Shown: positions 17,911 to 64,000 of the stretch, one piece after another
Layout of the letters: each line of letters begins with the position of its first letter
How positions within the stretch are numbered: the stretch's first letter is position 1
NCBI GenBank assembly: GCA_949152475.1
Contig: OX424562.1
Span: 21,638,209-21,702,208, forward strand
Source: Terebella lapidaria
Lineage: Eukaryota > Annelida > Polychaeta > Terebellida > Terebellidae
DNA length: 64,000 nucleotides
Reading direction: 5' to 3'
Notes under the pieces: generated by a model
Told to the model about the DNA's origin: nothing
What the model saw: only the letters and a program-made list of their open reading frames with translations
The model's database searches: none
Made by a program: the position numbers and the translations under genes

Positions 17911-17964
17911 TTTTCAGAATATCCATATGCATATAAGCCAGCTCGGAAATGTTTTTTAGGTCAC

Positions 17965-38600: not shown

Positions 38601-41010
38601 TTGTCATATAATCAAGTTTACAGATTAGAATTTTGAATCGTAGTTTTAACTCGTGTTAAAAACAACGGATAAATTGTCAAATGATATCTACTCCATATAT
38701 GTGCAAGAATACAACTGAAGTACACATCAATCATCTTCCCAATATACTCCATCTCAACACCACCACCACTTTTCACCTGGAAGAATGCTTATGTGGAGGT
38801 TCCCATTCTGGGTGATCAGTCCTCTTGGTCACAACTACTGAATGAAAGGCATGTTATTTTTTCACTTATGGTTATATAGTCTTACACTCAGTAATGGAAA
38901 ACCTACAGATGATACAGGGGTTGTAAGAAGGGTTATTGGATACAAGGACCGAGGTCATTATCTGAAATCTTTGGGTTGACGTTTCTCTTTGTGGGTCTTG
39001 ATGTGATGAGAGCAATTGTTGTCATCAAAATCAAATGGGAATATTGAATAGGAAACTGTTAATTTGTTATGCAAAACTTTCTTCCCCTATATACTGGAAG
39101 AAGTAAGGCCCACTTCAAAAAATTTAATTATTGCTGGGAAGAATAACTCTATTCGATTTTACTGATAAGCATAAAAATAGTATGCCGACAGAATAAATGT
39201 TATTGTGAAGAACAGATCCAATAATGAGTACAAAGTATCTCAATGAACAGCAATATCTCAGATAACATATAGTGTTATTATTATTGTAAATGTATTGCAA
39301 TTGGGTACGTCTGTGTTTCTGTCCATACACATATTTCAACGAGAAATAGTTTGATTGAGTTTATGGAATAAAGTGGCTCGTGTCGCCTCAATATTGGTGA
39401 AAATGGGATAAAAAATTGTTGAGATGGTAATGAAAAATGCGGAAATCACATGAATAGCTATAACCTTCCGTTTTTATAGTTTCTATGAATAATTCCTGAC
39501 CCTTTTTTTGGCCGATATTCGTAAGAGCAGAACTCCCCGTTATCGCTCGAACTCGGAAATTTGAAGGGTCATGATTTTATTCCCGGATGTCTTGAAATTC
39601 AAGACCATATTTTGAAGCCAGTAAAAAATAATTCTTTCAAACCTGGATCGTCGAAACAAAACTAAATCATTAGAGCTCAAAATTGATCTACAAGATCAAG
39701 ATCACATGATCAATTTTCCCTATTATTATTTCTTTTGCATTTCTCAATGGCCAATTCCCAATCATATGCTACATAATTGGTAGTCTCACCACAAAAATTC
39801 CATGTTATCCCACAAGATAGAAAATGTAAGGGCCATCAGCTGAAATCAAGAATTTATCCTTTTCAAGTCAGTACAATCTCAAAACGAACTGACGACTTTC
39901 AAATGAATATTGAACATAATGTATCAAGCAACGATAGCTCGCAAAGTGTCAGAGGTTAAAGCAGCTGCCTTCGAAACCAGTCAATATTTTTTTGAAAACT
40001 ATAGTTCATATTAAACATGCTAAACTAACTGAATGAAACATACTCACATCAAATGTTATGAAAATAACCAGTCCTCAGGGAAATTTTGCTCATTTGAACA
40101 GGCGGTTCTCGCGTAAATACAGGAACTGTATCCATCACACGCATATGTAAACAAAGCATAGAAGTGCGAGATAGACTGAAAATTCCACGAACATCATGGT
40201 ATATCACTGATTATTCTCTCATAACTACACCATATATGCCCATGCGAACTGGAAAATGTACTCGATGAGGACTTTTAAGCGCGATTTGAGCGTTTGTTTA
40301 CATTCGGGTTTGATGGATACACTTCGTTTGTTTATTTACAATACCGGTACAAAATGGGCACTAAAACGGATGAAAAGACAACTCGGACGGACTGTGATTG
40401 TCAAAATCATTGAGCACACATTTTGTTATATCACATTAGATGTGTTCAACAAAAAATTGGTATTGAAAAAAATATTCCATACATTCGAAGGCAGCAGCTT
40501 TAAGACTTCAGGTCATAGTCGAAAATCACAACTTTACTTTCATTCATGATCAATTCTTTCTATGATTTTTGTTTTTCTGTGGCAAATTGCACACCATTTG
40601 ATGTATGACCGATGGTCATACCACCAATATGATTGCCTGATGTCGAAGTTTACGGGTGATCAGATGGAACTATAGTGACTGAATCTATTCGACAATAGTT
40701 GTGACTACGCTGTGAGAAGAGTTTTGAGCAGTTTAGCATGAGCAGCTAATAACACATGACACCCGAAAAAAACAAAAAACAGATCAGATATGCTGAAATT
40801 TGTCCCTAAAGGAAAATAAAGGGATATCTTCATGGCTACCGAATTTGTAATCAGAGATATCAGTAGATCACATGTCTGGTCTGATGGCAAGAGACATCAT
40901 TTTGTCTGAACCGTATGTAAATTCATATGCCGAGAATCAAACGACAAATTCATCTGTCCTAATACAACGAAACTATACATAAAAACAGTGTCTGTTGAAT
41001 TTTGGCGGAT
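38601..41010. other. Non-coding stretch left of the giant transposon
   Basis: No exon is supported; one plus-strand frame (40256-40549) is open for 97 codons but lacks domain similarity. The stretch ends at the hairpin-forming edge of the large TIR element. Confidence 0.4.
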
Positions 41011-41048
41011 TTCTTATCCGCCAAAATACCCATCTTTTTAAATCAGAG
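41011..41048 (+). repeat. Left TIR of the giant transposon
   Basis: 38 bp, perfect inverted match to 63963-64000. It contains TTTAAATCA, half of the 16-bp palindrome found throughout the element. The adjoining bases make a hairpin: TTTTGGCGGA (41000-41009), a 7-base loop, TCCGCCAAAA (41017-41026). The match stops at 41049. Confidence 0.9.
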
Positions 41049-41238
41049 AGATGTGTGCATTGTGACCGTTCGGCGTAACCGAATTAGCACCGTTATCACA
41101 ACATCCAAAAGACAATTTTGTGGCGTTATACATGTGCTCTTTATTGTATAATGCAAGTAGCATTCACATATTGGCCTTCAATGTGTTGAAAGTACACATG
41201 TATAGGTACAACAAACGGATATTTGAATGGTTTGAAAA

Positions 41239-44200
41239 CTATTTATTCTGCAATGTCGAAAGGATGTTACTGGGAAGCCTGTTCGATTTCGTCAGACAGA
41301 AGGTGTGGTGCTGCGTGCCGGATAACTTGAGTTTTTTGGAAACATTATGTCCACTGTTTAGCGTCATTGGTTCCCATGAACCAGATAGACGCCCTCGGTA
41401 CACGATGATTTCTACGTCACCGCGTTCTACAGCTATGACTTTGCCGATCGTCCAATTTTCATTCACCAGAACAGCCACCATGAACCCAATAGTCGGACTT
41501 TGAGAGGGGGTAGTGTCCTCCGCGAGTGCTCCGTGTTGGGTCTTGCGTCTTTTTCCGTGATAGACCTGGGGTAAAAAAATCATCATGCGGTAAAGCATGG
41601 GTATAAAGAGATGAACTCATTGTGGATCTACATATGGGCTCGCGTTACAGATATAGGACGATGTGACCAATCGATGCATTACCTCTGGAATTGTCCTTTC
41701 CTTTTCCACCACACCTGACAGTGGTGAAGCGAGGTTGTGTTGTCTTCTAGGAGCATCACGGTCCTCTGCCAGGAAACCGTTTGGTTTCAATTGTTCCAGA
41801 TGAAAAGGGGTTTGAGGATTGTGGTGTTTTAAGGGGTTATTCAAAAATTCTGTCCACCAGGTGTACTGTGAGAAGGAAAGATGCATCTTTATCTTCTCAA
41901 TATTGTTCGCGATATCTTCCATAGTGTTTTTCCGTTGAAAGTCAGGCACAACTACATCAGGGCGACCTGTGGGATAAGTTGCTGCACCATTGTTATTCGC
42001 TTTGAAAATTTCAAGTGGTTCACGGTCGGACTGTGGCAGCCAATCAGAGTCAGTCGCCCAATTCTTATACTGCAGTCTGGTATTGCCATGATCATCTTTG
42101 TATATTCTGGGGGGAAAAAAACCTCTATAATTGGTATTGAAGAATTGGTATAAAATGAGGTAAATTTTAAAACGAGCTATTTTGAATATATTATTATAAA
42201 TAATTGATGATTACGTTCTGTGAATATTTTATTTCAATTCTGCATGAATGAGACGACAATCCGACGAGAAATATATAACTACTTTTACATGTACAAGTAC
42301 ACCCGAAATGACTGCATGGAATATATTATACTGCAGTTATTTGAACATCTCATTGTAGACCGTAAAACTTGAGTGCAGGTTAGAATTGAATTACCGGTAT
42401 ACGTGCGGATGCAGATGATTATGTAGATCATTTAAATACGGGCTGATCCAGTCCTTGTAGTTGTACACCGTTCGTAGGAACTCTGGTTTCATAACGCCAT
42501 TGCCCATGCAGCCGAGAATGACTTGCGTCAAATCTGCTAGTGTCATCGCGTCGCTTCGTTTTAGGGCTGCGGATATCTTCGAGAATCTTGCGTCGATATC
42601 TTTGAATAAAATAATGATAATAATAATAATAATATAATATTTTGAAAGAGCACAGGCCAATAAGAAATAATTAATTATATTCATGATGGTATAAATATAT
42701 GGTTAATTTACCTTCGTGTGTATGGCCAACCATCAGAAAACTCAGCTGCACCATACTGACGATTTCCTTGGCAACTAGAAGTGACATAGCTCCAATGAAG
42801 AATTTGTTTTTGTTTTCTCTGGAACAGTTATCTAGCTGCACGTATATATTCTTGGGGAGAATCCCATCTGAAGATTCCGCAACTAGCGTTTCCATAACAC
42901 AATTTATCGTGAGATTGGAGTCATGTGGCCATTCATTGCAGTCAATTTTGCAGTACGTCTGTCGTCCATGAACTAAAACACCCGTGACATGGGTGTGTAA
43001 CTGCTTCGTTGGATCATGAATCTGCAGAATACAAAATAAGGGTAATGTTTGCGCAATATTTGTTAAACTTTGTTGTCCTTCAAATTGAAAGTGCTTTAAT
43101 CATCATACATGTACTACTTATGGATTCATATTCACGAATGTCTCATCTGGATTATCAGTATTCGTGAAACTCACAGACGGAGGTCGCCATCCTCTCCAGT
43201 GTGGAATGTCGGTCTTTGATTGGTCCATCCCATCACATATCAAACTCAGATAATCACCAGGTTTTGCAACAGCTTCTGCGCGTCGTTCATAGTAAGAAAT
43301 GCGTTCGTTGCTGGAAATGTGCACATAAAATAAAATCATTATATTTACATTGTGACAAAATACACTAAATTCAACATGTTACTACTTGTACCAATATCAA
43401 TGCTAACCGTTGTAATTCCAAATGTGCTTGCCGGTCTTTGAGAATTAATTCCCGTGCGTCGGGCTGGATGTTCTGGCTGAGTAGAGTTCTTGCTAGTGAA
43501 CATACGTTGCACTTCGTCATCCTGCAATACTGTTGTAGGAATGAAAGGTCCATTTTTATAACGGTTGGTGGCGTTTCCCACTTTATCGAGAATTCACTTT
43601 AGTTCATTGCCCACCGGTACTGGTATAAATTTTTGTTTCCATACTATATGGTGTATTTAGGAATGAGCTTTAGGATGTTTATGCATTCTTCGTAATAAAG
43701 ACAAAAAAATCAGAATACAATGCATATACCTAAAAAGATTTACACATGTAAGTTCTGATTTTTAAAACTCGTTAACATAATTTTTCGCTGATATTGTGAG
43801 ATGCTGTAACAAAGGCATCGTGTTATAACTCGGTATACTTCATCTAGGAGTCAAACGGCACTTTCATGGTAAATTTCAGACTTCTATCGCAAGAATCAGA
43901 GACAGATGGTACTAGTACTTACTCGTTGCTGTGAAACGTGTGACATTTCAGATCGCCACAAGTCGTAGAAATACACCATCGATATTTGTTCTCCTTTTGG
44001 CGTTGATTTCAAATATTCTCCATAGATCTCTCTCACACAAAGTCCAGCTGGTAACACAATTCTGGAGGATTCGGGGTGATGGTCGGCCGTGACGGACACA
44101 TACCACTTCATGTACCCCAAAGCAAATGATCCTGTTTGAAAACGAAGATAGAGCGTAATAATGATTAAAATTAAGTAAAGTATACATACACCTTGTCCGT

Positions 44201-47200
44201 ATGAATATGATTTAAATAAATCAACCGTCCAATAAAACACCACTACGAGCCTACAATTTACATTTTGCTGGTGGTTTGCATTTTCAGGGCCATACAGTAA
44301 TGGCCCACCTGCTCGTCATACTTGTTGCATTCGACATGCATTGTACAATAAATTATATATTACATACTGCATGTAGTGGACCATAAATCGTTGCCGAAAA
44401 TGTTATCCTATGAGTTCTGAGAACTTATGACACCAATTTGTTTTAGTTACCAATAGCGAAAAGATCACAAAATATTTTGTTCCGACTGCTGACTGCAGTA
44501 GTCTAGCCCTATATGTCTGCCATCATCATACATGCAGGCTACGGCAAGGATCTCACTACATGTATGATCTGTCGCAATTCAACGACAGAGACAGTCGCTT
44601 CTTCACTGCGACTCCAGAGACTAAGTACATGCCAAAGCTAGTGTATCATTCTCCTCCTTTTGTAACATCCAGGTCTTCATGAAAAAAAGGGGAATATGAT
44701 TTAAATAAATCATGCACATTTCCAAGGCCGCAAGACACGAGATTGCAACATAACGAGACTCTACACAAGGCCACTGCCTTAAAAAAATATCGTAGACATA
44801 TCAGGCTTAGGCTCTACATGATTGCTCCAAAATGATTGCGAGAGTCTTAACACCGAAATATTTCTGCGTGTAGTTACCGGGTTTTGGCCCATTTTGGGGG
44901 AGCCCTGATAACGTACCCTACCCCTATATGACGTTCAAGAGAGTTCTACAGGCTTGACTTTCGGTGTCAACATTAACATACATCGGCTTTACTGTCAGTG
45001 AACAAAAATGGTGAAGCAGATACTAGAACACACCATGCCCATACTGTATATATTGTAACGGTTTTGGGGCGTACCCAAAGGTTTCCCCTAGGTAATTATG
45101 TTAGTGTTTTGTGATATTATGGTTAAATAACCGTTTATTAGGGTGTATATGTGTTTAAAGGTTCATACGGTTCTGTATTGTTAATGTTTTAAAGGTTTTC
45201 CGTCTCGGAACTTAGTAATTTATGATGTCGGTAAAGCCGGAGACGGAGCCGGAACCGGAGACGGAACCGGACACGGAGCCGGAACAATGGAGTACAAAAA
45301 CGTAATGACGTTATTTCCGGAAGGTCATGTGATCAGCCTCATTTTCGGTTTAAAAGGTGACGTGTCAGCCACTGATTGGTTCTAGAGTGTTTTTAGAAAT
45401 CCGGAAAATATCAGTGTTTTGGCGGACTATGACGTCACAATAGGTTGGTCACGTGACGTGGGTCTCAGGTCTATAAAAGCCCCCGCTTCACAGCGGACGG
45501 CGGAGTTGGTGTCCTGACGTCGACCTGTGCAGACCCCTTCTCCCATAGCAGAGTACTCCCTTGTTCCGGATAGAGTCATCCAGATGATAGCAGTTAAGTC
45601 TTCCGACTGTGAACTTGGAAAATAAACATGAAAACTTCAACCGAGTTGTTTTTCCGTGTTCGTTAGGGAACTGGAAGTTATAATAAAGTTAGTTTCCCGG
45701 AAAAGACAGTTATACGGAGTAAAGGGAGATAAGACTACAGTCGGTTAAGACCAAGTTGTAACGACGTCTTAGGGTGATCTAAGAACCCAGATCACCGAGG
45801 AAGGAGTCGGAGACGGAGACGGAGGTGGAAATCAACGGAGCAACTACGGAGGCGGTATCGGACGGAGCAGTTGCAGAGACGGGAACGACGAAGCAGTTGC
45901 AGAGGCGGTACCGGACGACGGAGTTGCAGAGGCAGTACCTGACGGAGCGGTTGCGGTAACCGGAAGTAGGAACACTTCCGAGATACTCCATTTCAGGTGC
46001 AGTCGCAGGTTGCGGTGAGGCGGAGCCAACCGGAGCAGATTGCAGTGCGGCGGAACCTGGCAGAGCGGTTGCAGTATTCGGAAACGGCAACGTTCCCGGA
46101 TTCTTTATTCCAGGCGCAGTCGCAGTTTGCAGTAAGACGGAAAACGACGGAGCTGTTGCAGTAAAGCGGTTTCCCGACGGAGCAGTTGCAGTACCCGGAG
46201 ACGGAAACGCCTCCGGATCCTTACTTTACAGGTGCAGTTGCAGACTAGCAGTCGGGCAACGGTTAAGAGGTCCATTCCAGACCACGCTACCAACCTTAGA
46301 GACTTCTAGCCGGAGTTCAACCGTACAACAGTAGCAGTTTCCCGGAGTTTTACCGTTTCAGCTCCGGTTAAACAACAACTCACCCACCTCCCTAGAAAAC
46401 CGGTTCATCAAGACGTCACAGAAGGGTTCAAACCCGTTACAACTTTTTGGTGGCAGCGGTGGGATCATCTGCAGTATGACTACTAGACGGGGCAAATTGG
46501 CGGAACAGCAGCTGAAGGCAGCCGTGTCGGACACAGAGCAGCCTGTAGGAGCAGTAGGAGCTGAGCCGTTGCAGATGCCGGTTGCGGAAAAGGAAGCGGT
46601 TCGTCCTGCCGAGCGGAAGCTGTTGCAGCCGGAAATGCAGAAAGCAGTTGCAGACGAGCCCCTCCGGGTTCCTCAAGGAGAACAGCCTGCAGAGCAGTTA
46701 GCAGAGGCGGAAGTTAACTTTCCGGACCAGGCTGGCGATCGGGAACCGGATGCGGACCCGGAAGGCGGAGAGAACTTAGTCGACAACCTGACCAGATTAT
46801 TGGCGACCCAAATGGAGGTGTTTCAGCAGCACCTGGCAGTAACCGGAAAGCAGCAGCAGGCAGAAGCAGTACAACAGCCAGCACCAAGGGCAGGAGTAGC
46901 CAGATTAATGACATACGACGGAACTGATCCGTGGCCGGAATATGAGGCTCACCTCCTTGAATACGCTCGGTACTACCGTTGGACAGCAGAGGAAAAGGCG
47001 CTGAACTTATGTGTCAGTTTGAGGGGTAACGCCCGCAGCATACTACTGGATCTGTCCGCGGAGCAGAGACGCAGCTTTGATACGGTTGTGGCGGCATTAA
47101 AACAGCAGTTTTGTCCGGGGGAGAAAACATTTGTTTTCCAGGCAGAATTGCAGACACGGAAATTGCAGCCGGAGGAGGAGCTGTCCGAGCTGGCCAGAGA

Positions 47201-50200
47201 CATACGGAGCAAGACGCGGCTAGCTTACCCAAAAGCAGATCCGGCAACAACAGAAGTGCTCATGAAGATGCATTTCTGCAACAGCCTGACTAACCGAGAT
47301 ATGCGGTTGTCGGTATTGAAAAGCCACCCGGAAACGCTGTCGCAGGCCCTGGCTTTCGCTACCGAGTATGAGAGCATCATGAAAACGGACAACAGCAGAC
47401 CAGCGGAGCGACACCGGACGAGGCAGCTGAACACGGAGCCGGAGTGGAGCCAGCAGGTGAACGAATTGCGGAAGCAAGCCGAGCAGACTCAGCAGCAGTT
47501 GGCGGATCTGATGACTCAGGTCAAGGAAGCGGTTAGCCGGCAGCAGCAGCAGCGCAGTTCCCGAGCGGATTTAGAATGCTTTAACTGTGGTCGGAAAGGG
47601 CATATTGCCCGAGACTGCAGATTGCCGAGACAACAGCAGCAAAGGCGGCAACCCCAGCAGCAGCAGCAGCAACAGCAGCAACCACTGCAGCAGCAGCAGA
47701 GACAGCAGCAGCAACAGCGGATTGCCCGGATTGTCCGACAGACCCGAAGTAGTGGAATTCCACAGCCCAAGCCAAGGAAGGGAGGTCGTCGGAGTCAGTC
47801 ACGGAAACAGCAGCGCCGACCAAGAGCAGATCTGGAGTGTTTTAACTGCGGCAGGAGGGGGCATTTCGCCCGAGATTGCAGGCTCCCGAGACCACAGCAG
47901 CAATGGCGGCAACCACCGCAGCAGCAGCAGAGACGGCAGCAGCAACGATGGATTGTCCGGATTGTCCGGCAGACCCGGAGCAGTGAAACTCCAGAGCCCG
48001 AACCAAAGAAGGGGGGACGCCGGAAGCGGTCAAGGAGATCGGGCGGAGAAGCAGAACTGACGGAGGAAGCAGTCCCAAGGAAGGCGGTTGCAGTAGCGGA
48101 GAAAGCAGCGTCCCGGAAGCCGGTTGCGGTTGCGGTGACAGAGGAAGCAGTCCCAAGGAAGGCGGTTGCAGTAGCGGAGAAAGCAGCGTCCCGGAAGCCG
48201 GTTGCGGTTGCGGTGACAGAGGAAGCAGTCCCAAGGAAGGCGGTTGCAGTAGCGGAGAAAGCAGCGTCCCGGAAGCCGGTTGCGGTTGCGGTGACAGAGG
48301 AAGCAGTCCCAAGGAAGGCGGTTGCAGTAGCGGAGAAAGCAGCGTCCCGGAAGCCGGTTGCGGTTGCGGTGACGGAGAAAGCAGCGTCCCGGAAGCCGGT
48401 TGCGGTTGCGGTGACAGAGAAAGCAGTGTCCCGGAAGCCGGTTGCGGTTGCGGTGACGGAGAAGGCAGTTCCAGGAAAAGCGGATGCGGTTGCAGAGCAG
48501 ATTAGGCTGGCGGAGAATGCGGACCAGGATACTGTGCTGGGGCAGAAATATCGACCAGATGATTTGCGGAGAATGCAGCAAGCAGAACCTTGGTACTCAC
48601 TGGTGACGTCGCTGATCGACGGGAGCGGTACAGCTGGCAGTGCAGACTTTTCCAGCATGAGCAGCGAGGAGAAAGTGCTGTACGGGATGCGGAAGACCTT
48701 GCTGAAAGTCGACGGAGTAGTCTACCGGAAATGGAGAACGGCAGAAGGAACCAGCCGAATGCAGTTAATAACCCCGAAGGAGCTGAGACAGGAGATTTTC
48801 CGTCTGGCCCACCAGAGCCGGACGGGAGGACACCTCGGAAGCAGAAGGATGGCGGCTAGCATTCGGAGGCGGTATTTCTGGCCGGCTATGATGCGGGACA
48901 TAAAGCAGTGGGTGCTGAGCTGTGACGAATGTGCGTCAAGAAGTATGCAGAACTTGAAACGATCTCCGATGCAGAAATACCGGGTTGGAGCGCCCATGGA
49001 GAGGGTGGCAATGGACGTGATGGGTCCGTTACCTAAATCCACCCGGGGGAACCGGTACATCTTAGTAATCGGCGATTACTTCACCAAGTGGGTAGAGGCT
49101 TACCCGATGCCGAATCAGGAAGCGGTGACGGTTGCGGACATATTCGTCAACCAGTTTGCAGCACGGTACGGTATCCCGATGGAGATACACACCGACCAAG
49201 GCAGAAATTTCGAGTCCGACTTGCTGAGAAATGTTTGCAGAATCCTGGGGATTCACAAGACACGGACAACCGCTTTCCGACCTCAGTCGGACGGTTTCAT
49301 CGAGCGATTCAACCGGACGCTGCAGCAGATCTTGAGCCTGTACGTAAGCGAGCGGCAGACCAACTGGGATCAGCTAGTTCCGTTGGCGATGGCAGCTTAC
49401 CGGAGTACCCCGCAGGAGACAACCGGGCAGAGTCCCAACTTGCTGATGCTGGGCAGAGAAGTCAACACTCCGGTAGAGTTACTGATTGGCAGACCGCCGG
49501 GAGAATCAACGGCAGAAGTAACAGAGTATGGCAGTCAGCTCCGGGAGCGACTAGAGGCGGTATACAAGGCGGTTCGAGCGAAATCTGGCAGAGAAATGGA
49601 ACGGCAGAAGAAGCTGTACGACCGGAGGAAGGTCAACAATCAGTTCCAGCCAGGAGACCGAGTGTGGATGGCGGTCAAAACACGGAAGAAGGGCAAAGCT
49701 CCCAAGTTGCAGAGGAAGTGGAGCGGTCCAAAGCTAGTGCTGAGCAGATTTACCGACGTGACCTACGAGATTGCAGAGAGTGAAACTCGACAGAAGGTGG
49801 TTCACTTCGATTTGCTGAAACCGTATAATGGCGTCAAGCATCCGAGATGGATGAAGCGGAGAATGGCGGATTCCTGGAGGCAGACGGAGCCGCCGAAGCA
49901 GAGTAGTGTTCCGGAGACGGAACCGACGGTCTCTGAGTCGGATACGGACTCGGAGTAAAGCCGCAGAGGACGCAGAAATATTAGAAGACGGAGTGAGCTG
50001 TAGAGCAGGAGAAGGAGATAGCTGAGACCCTGGTAAAACGTTGAGTTCCGGCAGAGAGCGACCGCAAGAAGTCGAAGCAGTGAGCAAGTGCTGGTTCCGG
50101 AAACAGGGCGGAGAAAGGAAGCAGAGCGGAAAGCGGTGCAGAGACCGGATAGAGACATCCTTGAGGTTCTGACTGGTTTGAGCGCATAGTCAACCAGTCC

Positions 50201-53200: not shown

Positions 53201-56111
53201 CCGGAAGTAGGAACACTTCCGAGATACTCCATTTCAGGTGCAGTCGCAGGTTGCGGTGAGGCGGAGCCAACCGGAGCAGATTGCAGTGCGGCGGAACCTG
53301 GCAGAGCGGTTGCAGTATTCGGAAACGGCAACGTTCCCGGATTCTTTATTCCAGGCGCAGTCGCAGTTTGCAGTAAGACGGAAAACGACGGAGCTGTTGC
53401 AGTAAAGCGGTTTCCCGACGGAGCAGTTGCAGTACCCGGAGACGGAAACGCCTCCGGATCCTTACTTTACAGGTGCAGTTGCAGACTAGCAGTCGGGCAA
53501 CGGTTAAGAGGTCCATTCCAGACCACGCTACCAACCTTAGAGACTTCTAGCCGGAGTTCAACCGTACAACAGTAGCAGTTTCCCGGAGTTTTACCGTTTC
53601 AGCTCCGGTTAAACAACAACTCACCCACCTCCCTAGAAAACCGGTTCATCAAGACGTCACAGAAGGGTTCAAACCCGTTACAATATGATAGTTTTCACTA
53701 CTTTTGTGTTTGTGATTTAAATAAATCAGTTTCAAAACGTCAAAAGACAATTGGAAAAAAACTCATAGGCCTACCTTGGGACGGGCAATAACACACATCA
53801 GTCTCATTACAGTACATAATACAGTTTGCCTATCGGTAAAAATATTGCGGCTATCATATGTTGTCGTATCGTATTTACCCTTTCCACCAGCGGTTCTAAT
53901 ATCCTCATTTTTCTCGTTGAATAGATTTTCAATGCCAAATTTTGCAGCTTGCTTTATTCTGGAGTATGTCCTTTGAGATATGCCCAGCAAAACACACCAA
54001 GCGTTCCTGCAAATGCAAGGAGACATGTTAAATACTGCAGTAAGTTGTATTAAAGATAATTCGGACAGGGCCCACAGGCGCCACCCAGCGAACGATATTA
54101 CGGCTTTATCAAAACGTCATGACGTCAGAAAGTGGCATAAAATGATCACGTATAGTAACCAGTAATCTAACGAACTGAGCTAAACTGCGCAAGCCCGGCC
54201 TACCGTAGGCTATGCAGTAAAATAAATATGCAGATTTTAAGTGAATAATACCGCGTGGTGTAGGCCTATTCACGGTGATGAGGAGCACGGTGACGGTAGT
54301 CGCCGTAGTCATTTTAGCTGGTTTACGGCGTCACCATACTCACTTAAGCATAACACAATCCACGTCTGGAGTCTATAAGTTTTGTCGTGTATATTTTTGA
54401 TTGCCACTATGCTGAGCTGTATGAATCTAAAGTTTGATAAATAATACCCTGAAAAAAATAACAGTGCGTTCATGAGCAGGTGACTCGGAGTGAACATGTA
54501 GGAGCACGGTGACGCTGGTGTGAGAGCACGTGACTTTGTCGTTGGCCTATCTATGCAAGTAACGCTAACTAGGCCCATGAGTATAAACTGTAGGCTTTTA
54601 CCTATGGGTATAAACTGTAGGCTTTTACCTATGGGTATAAACTGAAGGCTTTTACCGAAACGAAATTCATCGGGAGAGCACCAGGCAGCATGTTAGGCTA
54701 TCTGTTTCGAGACGCATGCCGTGATTATTTGCAGCCTTTTAGATTGGGTAGTGTGCTTGCCACGGAGTTCAGCTAGTAATATATACTAGCACTGTAATAA
54801 TATATATAATGGAAGTCCAGCAATAGAGTCACGGATTAAGGGATAAACAGATATTCAATAATAACCCACATGAAACACTGATAAATTTTCAATAGCAGAT
54901 GGTGAGCCGATGCTCCGACCCAAACACTCTTAACCGTATATGCCTATTATGTCAATGGTGTGCACTGCTGCCATAATATCGTGAAATCAATGCAAATAAG
55001 TACTGCTTCCGATATCGTCCTCCTCCGGGACATCGATTACTCACCATGATTGCGAAAAAACGTAAAGACGTATTCCTGGCGGTCACAAGAAATTTCCCGC
55101 CAAAATGGGGCTAATTGGTTCATTTTTCACTCAAAAATTGTCAATATCTCAGAAATTAATTCGGTGACCTATATTTTTTATTTTCTCTACACGTGTATTT
55201 TTCAAAGATGTACATCATATAAAAAAATCAGTGAAATCTGACGACTGGATTTTTTTCTATTGCATTAATAATGATCAAAATTTGCATTTTCCCATTCACT
55301 CCCATTATAAAATTAATACAAAACACATATTTAAAACGTTATCATAACTCGAAAACTAGTTCGGTGACATATATATTTTTTTTCACCTACTATCCCAGTA
55401 CTACTTCATGCATTAACTGACGAATTTTAAAAAAATTCTGAGGAAATTTTTGTTTTGTCCGAATTATCTTTAAATAGGGCCTATTGCAGCTATCGGTATA
55501 GTCGAGACTTGATTTCCACATGTTTTATTTATTATTGTCATGATTGTTTTCTAGTCAGTTGTATGTGGAGTTTGTATAATGAAGGCTATTTAAAACATTT
55601 TGAAAATTGGACTTGATTGAAAATATATACCTAATCATGTCGTAAACCTAACAAGTGCGCTCATAATAAAAAAAAAATAGGCAAAGAGTCTAAAATGGTC
55701 GTATGGGACATATATGTAATTAGGTTTATGAGTCTAGGCCTAGAATAAATACCTGCATATCCTTTTGCCTTCTGCTATATGCGTTGTTCTGCTGCGTCCT
55801 GATTCGAACAAAGTTTCCTTGTAGACATCTAAAATCCTCAAAAGTTTCTTTGTTCCATTAGGTATGTTGTGTAATTTGTTTCTCCAACGGACTAAATCCT
55901 GAACAGTAAGGTGCTCATTGCATTGCAACGAACATCCACAAGCTAGTAACGATAGTTCTTCTTTAATGCGATCAAGTGATGATAGCTTGTTCTCTTTAGA
56001 TCTACACAATATAGTTTTGTCAACGATATTTGATCGCTGCAGTATCAAAATCAGCTGGACCATGAAAACTTTAGGTGACAGTGATGAAAAAATACTTATC
56101 GTGGACGACAA
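41239..56111 (-). CDS. DUF7869-like protein, probable DDE-type transposase, about 9 exons
   Basis: Minus-strand exons, 5' to 3': 56111-55753, 54006-53775, 44131-43923, 43529-43408, 43310-43136, 43021-42712, 42599-42395, 42106-41632, 41565-41239; about 800 codons. Every junction has GT..AG, and all agree in phase except exon 2 to 3. There the best donor leaves phase 0 while exon 3 needs one carried base, so a weaker donor or a hidden small exon is likely. Landmarks: GCSLQCNEHLTVQDLVRWRN; ICRNAWCVLLGISQRTYSRI (helix-turn-helix-like); RIVLPAGLCVREIYGEY; CRMTKCNVC; LICDGMDQSKTDIPHW; THVTGVLVHGRQTYCKID; IYVQLDNCSRENKNKF; VGHTHEDIDARFSKI; and a C-terminal IGFMVAVLVNENWTIGKV segment. These match, from memory, DUF7869 proteins of marine invertebrates. 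Asp in CDGMD, Asp in QLDN and Glu in HTHE are spaced D-x95-D-x38-E, as in RNase H-fold transposases; that role is my inference. The LTR element sits in intron 2. The 5' start is uncertain (ATG at 56111 or 56063). Confidence 0.82.
44208..44223. promoter_or_regulatory. 16-bp near-palindrome TGATTTAAATAAATCA, first of about 11
   Basis: Exact copies at 44208-44223, 44697-44712, 53713-53728 and 56941-56956, and in reverse orientation at 63347-63362. One-base variants at 56703-56718, 57633-57648, 60033-60048 and 60744-60759. A perfect palindrome TGATTTAATTAAATCA at 60685-60700 and a more diverged copy near 57314-57330. All are in introns or flanks of the giant transposon's two genes. None was noticed in the first 41 kb or in the LTR element. 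The TIRs contain the half-site TGATTTAAA. Likely a binding site for an element-encoded protein (inference). Confidence 0.7.
44244..45053. other. Intron 2 of the DUF7869-like gene, left of the LTR insertion
   Basis: No further exon recognised, though a small one may hide here given the phase mismatch between exons 2 and 3 of the minus-strand gene. Contains one copy of the 16-bp palindrome (44697). Confidence 0.4.
45054..46441 (+). repeat. 5' LTR of the Gypsy-type element
   Basis: 1388 bp, begins TGTAACGGTTTTGGGG and ends AACCCGTTACA, so the ends carry the short inverted repeat TGTAACGG/CCGTTACA. A TATA box (TATAAAAG, 45472-45479) follows a cluster of TGACGTCA/CACGTGACG-type words. AATAAA is at about 45620. 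The last half is rich in CGGAGACGGAG-like repeats. Confidence 0.92.
46476..49958 (+). CDS. gag and integrase region of the Gypsy-type element (fossil)
   Basis: One 1160-codon frame. Residues about 130-330 resemble a Ty3/Gypsy gag (YARYYRWTAEEKALNLCVSL). Two CCHC zinc knuckles follow: CFNCGRKGHIARDC (near 368) and CFNCGRRGHFARDC (near 454), separated by Gln/Arg-rich stretches. Residues about 530-680 are a 26-residue Ala/Val-rich tandem repeat. An integrase comes next: zinc-binding HQSRTGGHLG..CDECAS, catalytic Asp in AMDVMGPL, Asp in HTDQGRNFE, Glu in DGFIERFNR, and a C-terminal QPGDRVWMAVKTRKKG segment. Long open frames on the opposite strand here are shadows. The element as a whole is an incomplete fossil. 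Confidence 0.88.
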   Translation: MTTRRGKLAEQQLKAAVSDTEQPVGAVGAEPLQMPVAEKEAVRPAERKLLQPEMQKAVADEPLRVPQGEQPAEQLAEAEVNFPDQAGDREPDADPEGGENLVDNLTRLLATQMEVFQQHLAVTGKQQQAEAVQQPAPRAGVARLMTYDGTDPWPEYEAHLLEYARYYRWTAEEKALNLCVSLRGNARSILLDLSAEQRRSFDTVVAALKQQFCPGEKTFVFQAELQTRKLQPEEELSELARDIRSKTRLAYPKADPATTEVLMKMHFCNSLTNRDMRLSVLKSHPETLSQALAFATEYESIMKTDNSRPAERHRTRQLNTEPEWSQQVNELRKQAEQTQQQLADLMTQVKEAVSRQQQQRSSRADLECFNCGRKGHIARDCRLPRQQQQRRQPQQQQQQQQQPLQQQQRQQQQQRIARIVRQTRSSGIPQPKPRKGGRRSQSRKQQRRPRADLECFNCGRRGHFARDCRLPRPQQQWRQPPQQQQRRQQQRWIVRIVRQTRSSETPEPEPKKGGRRKRSRRSGGEAELTEEAVPRKAVAVAEKAASRKPVAVAVTEEAVPRKAVAVAEKAASRKPVAVAVTEEAVPRKAVAVAEKAASRKPVAVAVTEEAVPRKAVAVAEKAASRKPVAVAVTEKAASRKPVAVAVTEKAVSRKPVAVAVTEKAVPGKADAVAEQIRLAENADQDTVLGQKYRPDDLRRMQQAEPWYSLVTSLIDGSGTAGSADFSSMSSEEKVLYGMRKTLLKVDGVVYRKWRTAEGTSRMQLITPKELRQEIFRLAHQSRTGGHLGSRRMAASIRRRYFWPAMMRDIKQWVLSCDECASRSMQNLKRSPMQKYRVGAPMERVAMDVMGPLPKSTRGNRYILVIGDYFTKWVEAYPMPNQEAVTVADIFVNQFAARYGIPMEIHTDQGRNFESDLLRNVCRILGIHKTRTTAFRPQSDGFIERFNRTLQQILSLYVSERQTNWDQLVPLAMAAYRSTPQETTGQSPNLLMLGREVNTPVELLIGRPPGESTAEVTEYGSQLRERLEAVYKAVRAKSGREMERQKKLYDRRKVNNQFQPGDRVWMAVKTRKKGKAPKLQRKWSGPKLVLSRFTDVTYEIAESETRQKVVHFDLLKPYNGVKHPRWMKRRMADSWRQTEPPKQSSVPETEPTVSESDTDSE
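48060..48486 (+). repeat. 78-bp coding tandem repeat in the Gypsy-type element
   Basis: Four nearly identical 78-bp units plus shorter variants encode peptides such as EEAVPRKAVAVAEKAASRKP. The units are almost identical in DNA, so the expansion is recent or kept uniform by template switching. Confidence 0.85.
51333..52019 (+). CDS. Downstream ORF of the Gypsy-type element, unknown function (fossil)
   Basis: 228 codons after the integrase and before the polypurine tract. Ser/Arg/Pro-rich N-terminal half, then a more globular segment (HARYYAVRWGPEQWGP, VRIPDWSIRDERLRNG) and a Pro/Ser-rich end. No signal peptide or membrane helix, so it is not an obvious envelope protein. A TATA-like word (TATAAAA, 50794-50800) lies about 530 bp upstream in otherwise non-coding internal sequence. 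I do not recognise the protein. Confidence 0.55.
   Translation: MPATIQAVAGSRTSSAARDDGIESSASERSHADVQRARRSILVDQARATPGILSPVETRPRQSSSERSGRSQVRAPTQSPPYTFYPFGGPSTQPCPSHCFPVNIGGRSASVFAPAVPEHARYYAVRWGPEQWGPAEMRDSGVYVEIMEQRESPFGLVPTRQIVRIPDWSIRDERLRNGFYVPPQWSLHDPDLLPVDARGTSFGRPLVPQTFPPRPPSGSSSRRDTGGQ
52295..53682 (+). repeat. 3' LTR of the Gypsy-type element
   Basis: 1388 bp, same length as the 5' LTR, with no difference seen by eye. Preceded by the polypurine tract and followed by the ATAT target duplication. Confidence 0.92.
54575..54660. repeat. 28-bp triplication
   Basis: Three tandem copies of ATGGGTATAAACTGTAGGCT then TTTACCT (first copy ATGAGTATAAACTG, last with GAAGGC), within intron 1 of the minus-strand gene. 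Confidence 0.8.
55130..55390. repeat. Diverged duplication around TTCGGTGAC
   Basis: Two AT-rich segments about 210 bp apart share the order ATATCTCAGAAATTAATTCG / CATAACTCGAAAACTAGTTC, then GGTGAC(C/A)TATAT and a T-run. Non-coding, within intron 1 of the minus-strand gene. Confidence 0.5.
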
Positions 56112-59100
56112 AGAAGTTGGTTACGTTTCGGGTAAGATTCCTGGTAGAAAAGCTACAGTTACTGCACTTGTTCTGTGTGATAGGCTGTTGAATCAACTTA
56201 AAAAGTGAAACACATAGATCTCTGCGGTAATATTTAAAAATCTACATAGACTGTCATGCAATTCCACGAATTTAGTCATGTTTAATCATTGTGAATTTCT
56301 TTCAGATATAACTGCCGTGGATGACAAAGATATCGTTGAGGTAAGTGCCAATTTGAAAGCCATATACTGTATATGTAACATTGTACATTTCTGACTGAAC
56401 AAAACATAAATCAGACGGTAGGCCTACGTCAATCAGATTATCTGAAAATGTTTTGACCCTTTCGTCCAGGGACGCTCGCGATATGGGGGGTGGGGGGTGG
56501 GGGGGGGGGGTTGTTGCGAAAAGGGGGGGGGGGGGTACCCCCGATCGTATGGCAAATATCTGATGGTTGATATCGACTACTGACCTCCTGTAATTACGTA
56601 TACCGTATAGATCTACTCGGTTAACATCCACACCACATCTATAATATTTTTCTACTAAATCTAGATCTACTCTTCACATTCGTTGGGATAGACACTAATA
56701 TGCGATTTAAATAAATCAAAACAATCCCGGCACGCTGGCGAAATGGGGGAAGGTGGTGGAGTACGCCCGATAATATATGTATAGCCATGCAATAGCCTAT
56801 CTACCTGATGGTAGATCCGCTACTGACCTCCTTTCATTTAGTACACTGTAGGCCTACTCGGCTATTTAACATCCACGGTCTATTATATTTTTCTACGTAT
56901 AGGCACACTCTTCATCGTTGGGCTAGAACCAAAAAATATGTGATTTAAATAAATCAAAACACGCGAACCCGATATCAATTCAGAATTCTAGTCTATATTG
57001 AATTGAACTCAAAATTGCGGGGTTTTCTTTTATGCGCCACTTGGGCTAGTACAAGAAGGGGCACAGACCACTCGTCACAGTCATTCCTCACCACTATATA
57101 CTTCTTGCAACGGACAGTGAATTTCAGACGTATGTTTCTCTCGGAAAGTCCATGTCTACTAGTATTGCAAACAATGTCCTAGGGGTGTTATTGTCTGTTG
57201 CTAACCTAGAGGTGTTAAGGACGTAGTTATGATGTAGTCATGAACTTTATGAGAAACCCAGGCTCCTTCATTTAGCGGCAACTCTCGTGCGGTTAGGATA
57301 ATATTAAATATCCTCGATATAAATGAATCACCAAAGCTCAGGTAGTCCTCCATTGACAAAGAATTGCCTTGGTTCTAATAATACGGATTATAGGCCTACT
57401 CTAGTATTTTTCAATTACAAATTAAAAAATTATGCTTGCGATACAGTCAGTTATACCCATCGACCGTATCAAGACAAGTGTGAATGAAATTTCAATCGAA
57501 TTCCCAACAAATCACGCTTTTACCGTTTACAATGTGCATGCTTGATGATTTCCGCCAATGTAGGGGTGGGACGACAAAGTTTCTGGGCTAGAATTTAGAA
57601 GCCAGCTTTTATGTATCTGGAACAAAATCGTTTGATTGAAATAAATCACCAAAATTTATAGTTGAACTTCATAGAATATTCTAGTATATGTGGATAGTAC
57701 ACAAACTGTGTTCATTTCATTACATTCTCTATACATAATACGTTTTGAATAAATGTAATTATATAAATCTATTTTGATACCGGTACATTAATTCATTTGC
57801 AGATAAAGTTAGATGACAACTCTACTTTCGTTCTGTCAATATCTTATTTCCGAGGATGCGACACCCACTCAGCCGAGTTTCTGTACTCTGACAGTACCGC
57901 CCCTTTCATTTCAACTTTCAAAAAACAATTTCTCCAGCCGTTGATCATGGACGGAGTCGCAGAAGGAGTTGTTAGAAGTCGATATATTGAAGATGACCAG
58001 AACTCCATGAGCCTTGAGAAAGATACGAGTATCTCAACTGTGCTTGATAGATTCAGAGGGGTCCAACACGTCGCCTTCAACAAACTTCTCTCACCAGAAG
58101 AACCTTATCAAGTTCGGCGCGTCAACCAGGATCGCATCAATGATCTTTTCATCAAACTTAACACGACTGACGCAAAAGAACTGACGTCCCAGCTCACAGT
58201 AATGGTCAGCTCCACGAGACCAGGCTACTACGTCATCCTGGACGGTAATCATAGGTATAGAGCCATGCAGAAGGTCCGACAGGAGCCTACGAAACAGGAC
58301 TACTTCGAGTCTGTGGAGTGTTTCGTATATTCCGCTCTCCCACCACGCGACGCGCTGGTCCTTGGGATGGAGAGGAACAGAATCGCCCAAGATACCAGAC
58401 GTATGACTGATTACGACACTGTCGAATGTTTGCGAAAGATATTCGGCTCTTACGGTCAAGAGATAGACACACAGAAAACTTTGAGTGATGTTTATGCTAA
58501 CTTGCATGTGACAACGGTATATATAATATATACATATCATCTTCCTCAAATCGATGTAACTGGCAGTACTGGGTTCAGTTACTAGTAAACTCGTTACTCG
58601 TAGTATGACTTGAGTTATAACAATTTCACGCACTAAAATAAATTACTACTAGCATTTGATTCTGCCTTTTAAAAAGTAGGATTTCCACAATAAACGAATT
58701 ATTTTATGTATGAAATACTAGTATATACAGCTATATGTACCATGATGAAAAAAGTAAGCCTCCTATGATATGAAATATGATAATGCGGTGAACCGTTATT
58801 TTGTGAATAATTTGATGAGTTTAAACATACATTATGTGTATTTTTATGTTCAAAACACCAGCGAGAAGAGAAACAGGCTCTACAACCCCATGCCTTCGTG
58901 GCCCGTCTATCGAAGAGATGTTACAGCCTAATACGAAGAGGTTTGAAGGAGAACAAGTTCAAATCTACATCTTTTAACGGACTAAGAAAACTGAAAGAGG
59001 AGGAACAGTACAACACCCTGGCAAAGTTCAAAGAATCCGACTATGACAAGGGCATTCTGCGATCAATGACAGCCAAAAAACAAATCAAGTTGAAAGAAAA

Positions 59101-62100
59101 GGTAGGGCCAACTATAGTATGATATTGTTGCAGATATTGAATGCATTACATGATAGTGCTGCAAACCAGAACATGACTGCGAGGATGAACTATCGGTCGG
59201 AAACTCTAACGCATACCACAATCAAAATTATGGTATCATAGTTGCAACATTCAGTGCAGCAATGCACTCGGGAGTAAAAATGTATGTGATGTTCAATATG
59301 AAACTTGTGGATTTTGATATTGTAATTGGCAAATACTTAAATTTTTAAAGGCGTGCTGTATCCTAGTACACTGCTTGACAATAAATAGTACTTGTTCGGG
59401 GTTTCCATGCATGCTAGCATGATATACACCGATTCTGAGGCATCCACGATCAGAATCGGCTGATTGATTGATAATATTACGTGCGATACTGGATTACTAT
59501 ACGGAGTAACTGTTTAATGTGCAGGACTTGCCACTGAATGTGACGTGCACAGAGGACGGCGTTGTAGTTAAAAGGGGGGCGACTGTGTTGGCGTCAAATT
59601 CGATCGAAATGTATGGCATGAGGATGTCTGCCCAAGAATTCCATCGCGCAACGAAAGGTTCGATATACCGTAATTAACACATATACCGTAATTAACTGAA
59701 AATGATTACTCAAAAAGTTGTTCAAACAACCACCTAATTGTGTACCTATGCTATCCAAAGTGATATGTTTAAAATGTATTTATTACAAGTATTGTAAAAC
59801 TTATTCGGCGCTGTTGTAAATACATTTTATACAAAATGTATATTATTTTACAGAAGCGACCCGACATGTTTTGGAAAAACGACTAATTGGTAGGCTAAGT
59901 CTATATATTGTTTAATGTTTACTCACTTGCGTTATGCATAAATTTAATGAATATAGGATGAAAGTGAGAAGATTGATTTTGAAGTACTAGTATGCATTAT
60001 TGTAACTGAACATTAATTGCCAGCCATTTCTATGATTTAAATAAATCGAAGATCCAATCCCGCTTCCAAATCTAAAATGATTTGTTAATCTTGCATGTGT
60101 TTTCACAAAATATTTTACACATTATTACAGAACCATCCCGACGACTATCAGAAAACCCAATTGGTATGTGTCCTGTCCTTGTTATTTTTTTTCATTGTTT
60201 ATACGTCTAACATTTATAAGAACAAAAGGGACGAAATTATGAACGTGATACTGAAACAGAGATTTGTGATTTTGCTGTCGTTAAAGTAGATATTTCAATT
60301 TTGTTGAAGGCACTCGTAATTATTTTTATTGTAGAGCAAAATTGTAACATATCAAGGTAATGTGAAATTGAATATTATATAAATTTACCCCTTTTTATTT
60401 CAGTAGTCAACACCGAGTCTGCTAGAGGATCAGAATCGTCTAAGTCATCCAAGATAACAAAGAAAAGTAAACTGTTTTGTACTGTGCTACCAGTATTAGA
60501 CTAAGTATGCTGAGGAACTTTAAGCGTTCGTCATAATCGTCATGACTGAAATTGAAATAATACCACTGACTTAATCTCGCTAACATTCAGCAGGAAAAAA
60601 GACTTCTTGAGTATATGCAATTGTTGTGATTATTAGTAATGCAGTACTGGTATACAATTTACTGAATACGGCCAACCATCTGTATGATTTAATTAAATCA
60701 AAATCGTCTGCCGTCAACATGTCATTATGACAAGCAATTTATATGATTTAAATAAATCGAGGAACTATTTCAGCTTCTTAATCTAAAATGGTTCGTTATT
60801 ATTACAGAAGCATCCCGGCAACTATCAGCAGAACAAATAGGTATGTGTCATTGGTTTTTTTTTATTATTTGTATGTCCCACATTTTTTACGTATTTTTTA
60901 CGTACATTTTATACGTATTAAAGGGAAGAAATTATACACAGAATACTAAATCAGAGAATAATGATTTTGTTATGAATAGTTGGTTGTCTACTTTGTTGAA
61001 GGCATTCGTAGTTCTTTTTCCACATTAACATTTATACAGCAAAACTAAACAGAAAGTAACACAATTTTTTTTATTTCAGAAGTCGACAACGAGTCTTGGA
61101 GGACCAACAGAAGCACAGATCTCACCCAGGAAAGCAAAGAAAAGTAAACTATTTTGTGCTATGTTATGCTGAGATCCTTCACAGTTTATTATTTATTACT
61201 TTGTTGAAAGCACTCGCAGTTTAATTTTTGCATTTGTATGGCAAACTTTGGACAGATCGAGGTAACTCAAACTTGGATATCACATATTGCCCCTTTTTAA
61301 TAAAGAAGTCAACAACGAAGCTTCTGGAGGATCAGAAGAGCAGAGCTCGTCCAAGAAAACAAAGAAAAGTAAAATATTTTGCGCTATGCTATGCTGAGAT
61401 GCTTCATGGTATCACTACGTTTATCTTCATGGACAGAAATAACATCATTAGCTTGATTTTTACAAACATTAAGCCAGATCAAATAGTATTATATTAGTAT
61501 TGAATGAAGGATAACACAAAATACTGGCCCATACTAGTATATTCATAAAAGTATTGACTATGTAGTTCAATGAGATTTTTTTTTTTTCATTTCAGGAGTG
61601 AACAACGACTCTTCAGCTGGACACCACCAAAGTTCACTAAAAAAAGCAAAGACAGGTAAGATGCTATTTTGTGCTAAATCAAGCTCAGACGTCTACATCT
61701 TTCTTTGGGAAGGGAGATATCATCAATGATTTTTACAGACATTCATCCAATATGTGTTGATTTCTATATATGTAGGAATAACTCACACAATCCAAGTGGT
61801 ATGAATGTATATTTATTTTGGAAATACCAGTCGCAGATGTCCGCGCAAGTGACGCAGATATGACACTGAAGATGTCAACAACCCCTTTACCAAAAGGTAA
61901 TAATTACAATATTGGTAGAGAATATATTAAGAGTTTAGTTTGTAACCAAGTACACGCAGTAAGTGTTTTCATCAGAAGCAGACTTGATGTCAGACTTTGA
62001 ACCTGAGTTTTCAAATATCTGCTGACATCAATATATATATATATATATTTTTTTTTTCCATTCCAGGTATCGTGATTTCCCCTGTCGACCTACAGATCGG

Positions 62101-62347
62101 GGAATTCGTAGTAGTGAAGCCCCCAAGTGGGGTAACGGCCGAGTATCCGTGGGTTGGTGAAGTCCAGAAAATGACAAAAACGAAACTACTGATTAGATGG
62201 ATAGAGAAGTCTGATGATGGTTGGGAAGCCAAGGGAGAAGAGATGATCTCTCGGGGACACGCTCTGGCAAAGTTTGCCAAAGAGCTGTGGGCCGACAAAT
62301 CATCTCTTCCCCCTGGCTTCGAGGCCTTTTTAAACGGACTTATTTAA
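56062..62347 (+). CDS. ParB/sulfiredoxin-domain protein with duplicated mini-exons, about 14 exons
   Basis: Exons: 56062-56131, 56306-56340, 57803-58516, 58862-59101, 59525-59657, 59854-59889, 60131-60163, 60404-60466, 60808-60840, 61080-61143, 61306-61368, 61596-61655, 61831-61896, 62067-62347. All use GT..AG, and phases agree except for the 64-nt exon at 61080, one base too long; skipping it keeps frame. About 609 codons without it. The 57803 exon holds the ParB-like core: VRRVNQDRINDLFIKL, VILDGNHRYRAMQKV (the GxHR-type motif of ParB/Srx folds), then LGMERNRIAQDTRRMTDYD, matching the ENxxRxxLs segment. Exon 58862 is basic (LSKRCYSLIRRGLKENKFK). Next come short duplicated exons with EASRQLSAEQIG-like and VNNEASGGSEEQ..KKTKKS-like peptides, probably a flexible linker. 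The last exon has LQIGEFVVVKPPSG and YPWVGEVQK, a Tudor/BAH-like barrel by pattern. ParB domains bind DNA or act as CTPases or nucleases; which applies here is unknown. Confidence 0.75.
56341..57802. other. Intron 2 of the ParB-like gene
   Basis: About 1.46 kb without recognisable exon. Carries up to four copies of the 16-bp palindrome (56703, 56941, near 57314, 57633) and G-tracts near 56486-56535. Confidence 0.6.
59854..61655 (+). repeat. Tandemly duplicated mini-exon cassette
   Basis: Two exon types alternate, all phase 1-1. Type A (33-36 nt) is at 59854, 60131 and 60808, encoding EATRHVLEKRLIG, EPSRRLSENPIG and EASRQLSAEQIG. Type B (60-64 nt) is at 60404, 61080, 61306 and 61596, encoding Ser/Lys-rich peptides ending in KK-x-KKS or a variant. 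Introns are duplicated too: TGATTTAAATAAATCG precedes the A exons at 60033 and 60744, followed in both by TCTAAAATG. The unit is about 680-710 bp at 60033-61140; the later B exons sit in shorter partial units. Confidence 0.75.
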
Positions 62348-63962
62348 GTTTTCAGCAGCCATGAGCTCCTTCCAGGATAGGAACTCTTTTACAGTTGATG
62401 TTGTTTTACTGATGCTGTATACTAGATGATATTTTGAACTCTTTCGCAGATTTTTTTCTTTATATTTTTTTAATGCTCAATGACTTTCATGAAGTATGTC
62501 TTGAAAGTGTACTTGGTCTACGACAGATTTTTTTCCCCTGGTTGGGGTTGACACCAGTTGGTATGTTCTGCGATGCTAAAAATATATTATAACTTGGCAC
62601 ACTTCACATGGGAGACAACCGGCAATTTCCTAGAAAACTGCAGACTCATATCACAATTTTTTTTTAAAAAAAAGGGGCAAATCTATCTATGTTAATTTCA
62701 GCTTCTTCGCTGAATTTCTGGGTCTGCACAGGCTTTTGTGCATTTGCTTGCAATTTGTCGGTGGGCAATCTTCATTTGTGTAATACTAGTAGAAGTCTGA
62801 AATTTTGGATAAAATTGCCATTTGACTCCCATGTAATTATGCCAAGTTATAATAAATACCATTCAGCAGCGCAAAAGTATACTATCATAGTGTAATTAGT
62901 GTACTGTATGATGGAACACAATCTACACGTAGTTCACTCGGGGGTTTGGTAGTTTGATGTGCACATCAGTCCTCGGATGGTCGCTTGTGGCGATGTTTTT
63001 TCTCTCTTACTGTTATTATTATACAAGATCAGTAGCATTGGTAAGCACCAGTTCCACTACGATGTTTCAATTTGGCTGCCTGAGATTTTAATTCAGCACC
63101 AAAAAGATTTATGCACGACTTGTACACGACTTGCAACTGAAAGTCGCCGATTACAACACTAGTAGTGTTATCAGATTGTTGATCTGTTTATTTCGCGAGT
63201 ACGATATGGTTGCCTTGTGAATGCTTGTGCATTTGAGTTTTTAGACTATTGTATAAGCTTTCAATAAAAGTGCATTCTTATTTGCAATATGTACATTGTC
63301 TACTTTTTACTTGAATGTTAGGACGCCCAGTGACGATGAACAAGTGTGATTTATTTAAATCATACTGCCAATTACGGTTAACACATCAAGCTGTGTATAT
63401 GATCAATACATGTACCCACTACAATGCCGAAACGCTTGAGCCATGAATGGTTGAGTCTTCACATGTTGATGATGCATATCCAATGCAGCATGTGGGAGTT
63501 ACTTGAATAGTATGCGAAAGAAAAGCTTCGAACTTTGGACCCGGTACCGGGGACTTATTCGACTTATGATATATATTCGTCAGAGAAGTGAGGTAGAGAA
63601 TGGTTTTATTAGTTTCCTGACACCGTAAGTTCAAATTTCATGACTTTGCGTTCAGACTCATTTACATAAACATTGGCACTGGCGTGCCTTACAAACTGCT
63701 GATACTTGTATGATGTCATTTCTTCATTCTCCCAAACCATTCGCTAACGTCTGGTATTTGAAGAAATTTGAAGAAATGAAACGTTGACCTGTTCAAAGTC
63801 GACCATTTTTACAGTGAAGTAAACGGAAGATGTATTGGTATCTTGTAGCCTAAAGGCTGTCACAGTGGACCGTCACTATTGTTGTGCTGAGGGTATTTCA
63901 TCGTTCGGCACAAATCACATATGGATGATACTCGAGTGAGAGTAACACTACAGTGCACGAAA
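62348..63962. other. 3' UTR and right subterminal region of the giant transposon
   Basis: No exon. AATAAA at about 63263 is a candidate poly(A) signal for the ParB-like gene. A reverse-oriented copy of the 16-bp palindrome is at 63347-63362, about 640 bp from the right end. Confidence 0.45.
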
Positions 63963-64000
63963 CTCTGATTTAAAAAGATGGGTATTTTGGCGGATAAGAA
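63963..64000 (-). repeat. Right TIR of the giant transposon (cut by window end)
   Basis: CTCTGATTTAAAAAGATGGG then TATTTTGGCGGATAAGAA, perfect reverse complement of 41011-41048. The window ends inside or at the edge of the TIR, so the outermost bases and the target duplication cannot be read. Confidence 0.9.

Follow-up and report, generated by a model that had tools for sequence, protein, structure and literature searches.

A two-gene DNA transposon combining a DUF7869 gene with a ParB-like gene

The window analysed here is a stretch of 64,000 nucleotides (C8:21638209-21702208; contig OX424562.1 of Terebella lapidaria), and its right edge falls inside a 23,044-bp element bounded by terminal inverted repeats (TIRs). 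Inside the element lie two divergent genes: T, whose product belongs to DUF7869 and is a candidate DDE-fold transposase, and P, whose product is ParB-like; ten copies of a 16-bp palindrome accompany them (Table 1). Together with its relatives in the 761.6 Mb of genome searched, the element represents a real family of DNA transposons, one that pairs a candidate DDE-fold transposase of DUF7869 with a ParB-like protein, and as far as our searches reach it is new both at the superfamily level and as an accessory system.

Ends of the element and target duplications

An initial annotation, made from the window alone, had placed the limits of a transposon at a 38-bp perfect inverted repeat. That repeat is exact (41011-41048 and 63963-64000 are reverse complements) and its sequence occurs nowhere else in the window, and it does belong to the bounds of an element; the true ends, however, are found another 27 bp outward at either side, at 40984 and 64027. 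The right repeat seemed to stop at 64000 because the window ends inside it. Read past that point, as the annotation had suggested, the flank completes a TIR of 65 bp (64 of 65 positions identical between 40984-41048 and 63963-64027; outer start AACAGTGT), followed by a second copy of TAAA. Without a nested long terminal repeat (LTR) retrotransposon and one copy of its flanking ATAT, the element measures about 14.4 kb; the earlier description of a two-gene TIR transposon of that size, with DUF7869 and ParB-like genes diverging inside its limits, is thus borne out.

Table 1. Positions of the features of the element, numbered within the window
Feature	Position	Strand	Remarks
4-bp target duplication TAAA, left copy	40980..40983		right copy 64028-64031, beyond the window
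Left TIR, 65 bp, starts AACAGTGT	40984..41048	+	
Palindrome within TIR	40999..41027		arms 40999-41010 and 41016-41027, 5-bp spacer TTCTT; covariation of the arms seen when elements are compared
Gene T, DUF7869, DDE-fold transposase candidate	41239..56063	-	9 exons, 723 aa; start codon uncertain
T exons, high to low	56063-55753, 54006-53879, 44131-43923, 43529-43408, 43310-43175, 43021-42712, 42599-42395, 42106-41683, 41565-41239	-	
T exons 5 and 6	42712..43310	-	three acidic motifs DGMDQ, QLDNC, GHTHE
16-bp palindrome TGATTTAAATAAATCA	44208..44223	+	
16-bp palindrome	44697..44712	+	
LTR retrotransposon, nested in T intron 2	45054..53682	+	foreign to the element; ATAT on both sides
16-bp palindrome	53713..53728	+	
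Gene P, ParB-like	56062..62347	+	13 exons, 608 aa; model weakest at the first exons and the small repeated ones
P exons	56062-56131, 56306-56340, 57803-58516, 58862-59101, 59525-59657, 59854-59889, 60131-60163, 60404-60466, 60808-60840, 61306-61368, 61596-61655, 61831-61896, 62067-62347	+	
16-bp palindrome	56703..56718	+	one arm mismatch
16-bp palindrome	56941..56956	+	
16-bp palindrome	57633..57648	+	one arm mismatch
P exon 3, ParB N-domain	57803..58516	+	DGNHRYRAM motif
16-bp palindrome	60033..60048	+	one arm mismatch
16-bp palindrome	60685..60700	+	centre variant
16-bp palindrome	60744..60759	+	one arm mismatch
16-bp palindrome	63347..63362	-	reverse orientation
Right TIR, part within window	63963..64000	-	continues to 64027

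The first 100 bases within the originally proposed limit (41011-41110) match five places in the genome: the two ends of the element, both ends of a 371-bp short copy that consists of just the two ends joined, and one decayed right end; in a decayed copy the right TIR stands 3.4 kb from a P remnant. The exact terminal pattern is matched 12 times genome-wide and its reversed control not at all, and all 12 matches fall at ends already found by other searches; the idea that the right repeat belongs to some unrelated short repeat was rejected on this count.

Target duplications were examined in the six elements for which both ends are in hand, namely the window element (WIN), C2, C5, C1a, C16 and C1m, with the boundary set at AACAGTGT. 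At a duplication length (k) of 4, 18 of 24 positions match, compared with a random mean of 6.2, and none of 20,000 draws reached 18; all other lengths from 2 to 10 are weaker (0.012 for k=6, 0.018 for k=2, 0.028 for k=5). The six elements as a set, rather than element by element, therefore support a 4-bp target duplication, which is exact in WIN and in C5. An empty site, one of the checks proposed earlier, is available for the relative C1a, which inserted into a repeat. Its joined flanks have 42 matches: 34 span the junction, two are its own flanks, and six cover one side only. Six of the 34 repeat copies were fetched, and all six read CACGTATGG at the C1a site, where C1a itself reads CACGTAATT, element, GTATGG. 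At C1a, GTAT was duplicated, and its left copy has since been altered by a base or two (extra bases).

The TIR contains a palindrome of its own, with 12 pairs. Across 21 aligned ends (16 distinct), 87.0% of its cells are paired (81.1 when shuffled; at most 51.0 for slid versions), and 10 cells have changed on both sides (shuffled mean 3.9; reached in 0 of 500 shuffles). Against perfect upkeep, four of the 12 pairs carry such both-side changes, and at least as many are seen in 66 of 500 shuffles; further pair types show no excess over shuffled data (234/500); and two of the pairs fail to match, one in 9 and the other in 7 of the 16 rows. The palindrome is thus maintained, as DNA or as RNA, though imperfectly.

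The two genes, the palindromes and the genomic relatives

Both gene models are hand-made and rest on a single genome, the start codons of both genes and the small repeated exons of P being uncertain; their introns are all GT-AG and their reading frames open. The earlier annotation is corrected in that the start of T lies beyond the LTR element. Its product matches DUF7869 (8e-69), a domain of unknown function present in many invertebrate proteins, and otherwise only a weak chromo-like model (Pfam scan, E<=5); neither DUF7869 nor the string GHTHEDID was found in the literature searched. All of 51 T relatives match DUF7869, and at E<=0.01 none of them hits any transposase family of Pfam. Three acidic residues, D280, D361 and E400, are invariant in the 51 relatives, and the predicted structure of one relative has an RNase H core whose elements are ordered as they are in DDE transposases and integrases, and the D, D and E occupy its catalytic positions. 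T is thus predicted to carry a DDE/D triad on an RNase H fold, and would be the protein that cuts and joins the TIR ends.

T has 27 loci in the genome. Four DUF7869 loci (C7:20128604, C11:9947074, C6:10249690 and C9:17779398) have identical scores and open frames of 388 aa, and are possibly a separate, recently multiplied DUF7869 family. Profile positions 616-743 of T match two Nipped-B chains (E 3e-13), a match used for no conclusion here. Homology between the C-termini of T and P was considered and dropped (best blastp E 3.4), and among 45 and 51 pattern matches in viral contigs no relative of T or P was confirmed.

For P, structure modelling predicts the fold of a ParB N-domain. ParB and Noc proteins have a nucleotide motif of the type GxxRxxA, and DGNHRYRA in P fits it: D, N, H, R and A are invariant in a nine-row alignment, and G is replaced by D in one row. 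Inspected for the central helix-turn-helix of ParB and Noc, the model of exon 3 is helical but of low confidence beyond residue 190, and the C-terminal part of P gives no ParB match (Pfam scan, E<=5); the same scan of the full P model gives no match to a methyltransferase domain. In the protein collection, full-length P has no match among 7997 scored candidates, and a search with a two-row alignment gave one among 6250. Exon-intron units of the gene are duplicated locally (60022-60095, 60733-60806, 60385-60489 and 61287-61391), which gives its tail repeated small exons; a further copy, at about 61079-61143, was excluded from the model because it breaks the frame.

The 16-bp palindrome, TGATTTAAATAAATCA, occurs at 11 window sites with at most one arm mismatch. 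The earlier claim that all copies lie inside the element is right for ten of them; the eleventh, at 33129, is a weak match outside it. None of the ten overlaps a coding exon. Genome-wide there are 63 exact copies, versus 3 for the reversed pattern, and they form 17 clusters, of which 15 contain T, P or a TIR; palindrome clusters and the transposon family mostly coincide. Seven of the 27 T loci lie within 10 kb of a cluster, where 0.013 would be expected. When 31 sites from four elements (C2 sites excluded) are compared, the 16 motif positions are nearly fixed, the arms having been selected for, and the top base in the flanking columns reaches at most 21 of 31; because of this difference the palindrome resembles a protein-binding site.

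Searching with the palindrome also led to relatives: the C2 element, and elements that share the ends but in which the search for T found nothing. C2 (54517490-54546804; 29,315 bp) is divergent from the window element and has both TIRs, which start AACAGTGTATGG, and both genes, T on the minus strand at the left and P on the plus strand at the right; its P is 47% identical over the ParB region, with the core motif kept. It holds 54 palindromes, about 42 of them in a tandem array; read by eye, some 9.7 kb between its T and P (joined positions about 16139-25793) has a repeat period of about 620 bp, each unit holding two or three copies of the motif. In C1a (7,199 bp), C5 (7,181 bp) and C16 (8,253 bp) the two ends are of the AACAGTGTCTGC type, and these elements have long inverted arms whose identity is 83-96% over pieces of at least 366 bp. 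T was not found in any of the three, P was not detected by tblastn in C1a or C5, and C16 has a weak match to the C-terminus of P; they are best regarded as non-autonomous derivatives, short elements that would be moved in trans. The inverted arms of these 7-8 kb elements and of a larger C17 element with family ends seem to hold remains of the last exon of P (in C5 by eye). A third divergent T-P pair, at C17:20986-20992, lacks an exact motif, and the 551 bp read at its left end (C17:20986) show no TIR. For an element at C1:41107-41121 no right-end TIR was found in 1.75 kb, and for an end at C8:20309 no partner was found in the 5 kb read. The further copies called for by the initial annotation, with the same ends, genes and duplication, thus exist in part, as the divergent C2, the decayed copy and the 371-bp copy.

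Possible mechanism and alternatives

We read the element as a cut-and-paste type DNA transposon unmatched to any named superfamily, in which T would act at the TIRs, cutting and joining the element ends, and P would load onto the 16-bp palindromes as ParB does on parS; the probability of this reading we put at about 0.83. By analogy, P may act as a nucleotide-dependent clamp, coating the long element or bridging it, and may slide; this could let ends 14 to 29 kb apart pair, or the element be marked or kept. The need to pair ends so distant would explain the many internal motif copies and the tandem array of C2. P could just as well regulate the genes or mark the element, and T could be the palindrome binder. 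More tentatively, and at somewhat short of even odds, one can picture a eukaryotic, probably animal, transposon superfamily with a ParB/parS-like system of its own, in which P would be a nucleotide-switched clamp on the family palindromes (10 here, 54 in C2), helping a DUF7869 DDE transposase to pair ends up to 29 kb apart, or keeping excised copies.

Several observations weigh against the reading. There is no near-identical second full-length copy, and T and P are paired at only three places, including the C17 pair, for which no exact motif is present and 551 bp showed no TIR; 20 of the 27 T loci have no exact motif within 10 kb, and two of the 17 motif clusters contain neither T, P nor a TIR. 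The 4-bp duplication is exact in no more than two of the six elements (C2, C16 and C1m match at three of four positions; C1a, at one of four, needs its empty site), and the TIR boundary and k were both settled on the same set of ends. The best structural Z for T is only 8.6, and according to the tool's own warning values of this level can be common; with a mean pLDDT of 62, the P model is weak except in its core; and since T and P have overlapping predicted start codons, at least one of these is probably wrong.

One alternative assigns the palindromes to T, as internal transposase sites, and makes of P a regulator or, for example, a protein acting on chromatin. The motif does occur in C1a and C5, where P is not detected, and by eye a related half-site can be read in the TIRs of WIN and of the C1a type. 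T was likewise not found in C1a and C5, however; nine of the ten copies in WIN lie more than 3 kb from the nearer end, all ten avoid the coding exons, and palindromic sites of 16 bp are typical of ParB proteins. We consider this account unlikely, though worth keeping in mind.

A second perspective, which we rate as a good deal less probable than its opposite, supposes that the element belongs to an already named superfamily (KDZ, Sola, EnSpm/Chapaev or Academ, for instance) and is too diverged for the libraries used. Named superfamilies with 4-bp duplications and CAG/CAC-like ends are known. According to the IS481EU paper, Repbase counts 23 superfamilies, 21 of them DDD/E, and AcademX has target duplications of 3 or 4 bp (PMC10045372). 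KDZ, EnSpm and Sola are among the groups in which giant elements with accessory genes have been described, and one Sola1 family encodes a ParB-like protein: Ectocarpus Sola1-1_Ec32, of 21.5 kb, carries a ParB-methyltransferase protein on the strand opposite its Sola1 transposase, and similar algal proteins are cited (PMC12477816). That element resembles ours in its giant size and in the opposed strands of the two genes; it differs in that its ParB is fused to a DNA methyltransferase, in its algal host, and in a transposase filed as Sola1. Nothing closer on ParB in eukaryotic transposons came up in the literature searched. Against such an affiliation stand the 51 T relatives, the chromo-like model as the sole further match of T, and the silence of that literature on DUF7869 and GHTHEDID. 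With the DDE/D transposons and retroviral integrases at large (Mos1 mariner, Sleeping Beauty, TnsB, IstA), the element shares the predicted RNase H fold with D, D and E, TIRs and short target duplications; T differs in having no Pfam transposase sequence match, and the window element in its long intron-rich gene, its 4-bp duplication and its extra ParB-like gene.

Less likely again is that P came along by chance, as a passenger or a gene of host origin, and has no part in movement. For 26 of its 29 loci no T lies within 10 kb or inside a shared element (C2 being delimited by its TIRs), and the protein collection yielded a single relative. Set against this, T and P lie side by side in divergent orientation at three places, where chance proximity would give 0.023, P is open over 608 aa, and its ParB core has been kept in C2. 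That the locus is a host locus with an accidental inverted repeat is very improbable: in its favour, the family of the window element has one nearly full copy only, but TIRs are shared at sites with different flanks, the duplications hold as a set, C1a has an empty site, and the terminal pattern far exceeds its reversed control.

To return to the transposon with a ParB-like partner, the analogy with bacterial ParB/Noc and parS has its own limits: P is an intron-rich gene in a transposon, has no ParB match in its C-terminal part, and is compared here by sequence and predicted fold; a 16-bp palindrome is present and associated with the transposon family, and binding by P is putative. The association of DUF7869 with TIRs, with target duplications and with a DDE fold gives the domain a testable function. 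If the reading is correct, a fold by which bacteria sort their chromosomes, the ParB N-domain, would have a new use in a transposon that is probably an animal one, and the combination of a ParB-like gene with a family-associated palindrome would allow a direct test of how very long transposons pair their ends.

The nested retrotransposon and minor features

The two LTRs of the retrotransposon in T are identical over 1,389 compared bases, the last one perhaps by chance, and this identity suggests a recent insertion. One long frame (46476-49958) contains a zinc knuckle and an integrase. Reverse transcriptase gave no match in 46476-47770, 48390-49955 and 51084-52016, the only pieces scanned, so the element may depend on other copies. 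Elsewhere in the window, inverted-repeat pieces at 20594-22301 and 34154-34839, about 12-14 kb apart, are 88-97% alike, and tandem arrays occupy 6327-6680 (43-bp units), 29327-29936 (45-bp) and 4907-5195 (21-bp).

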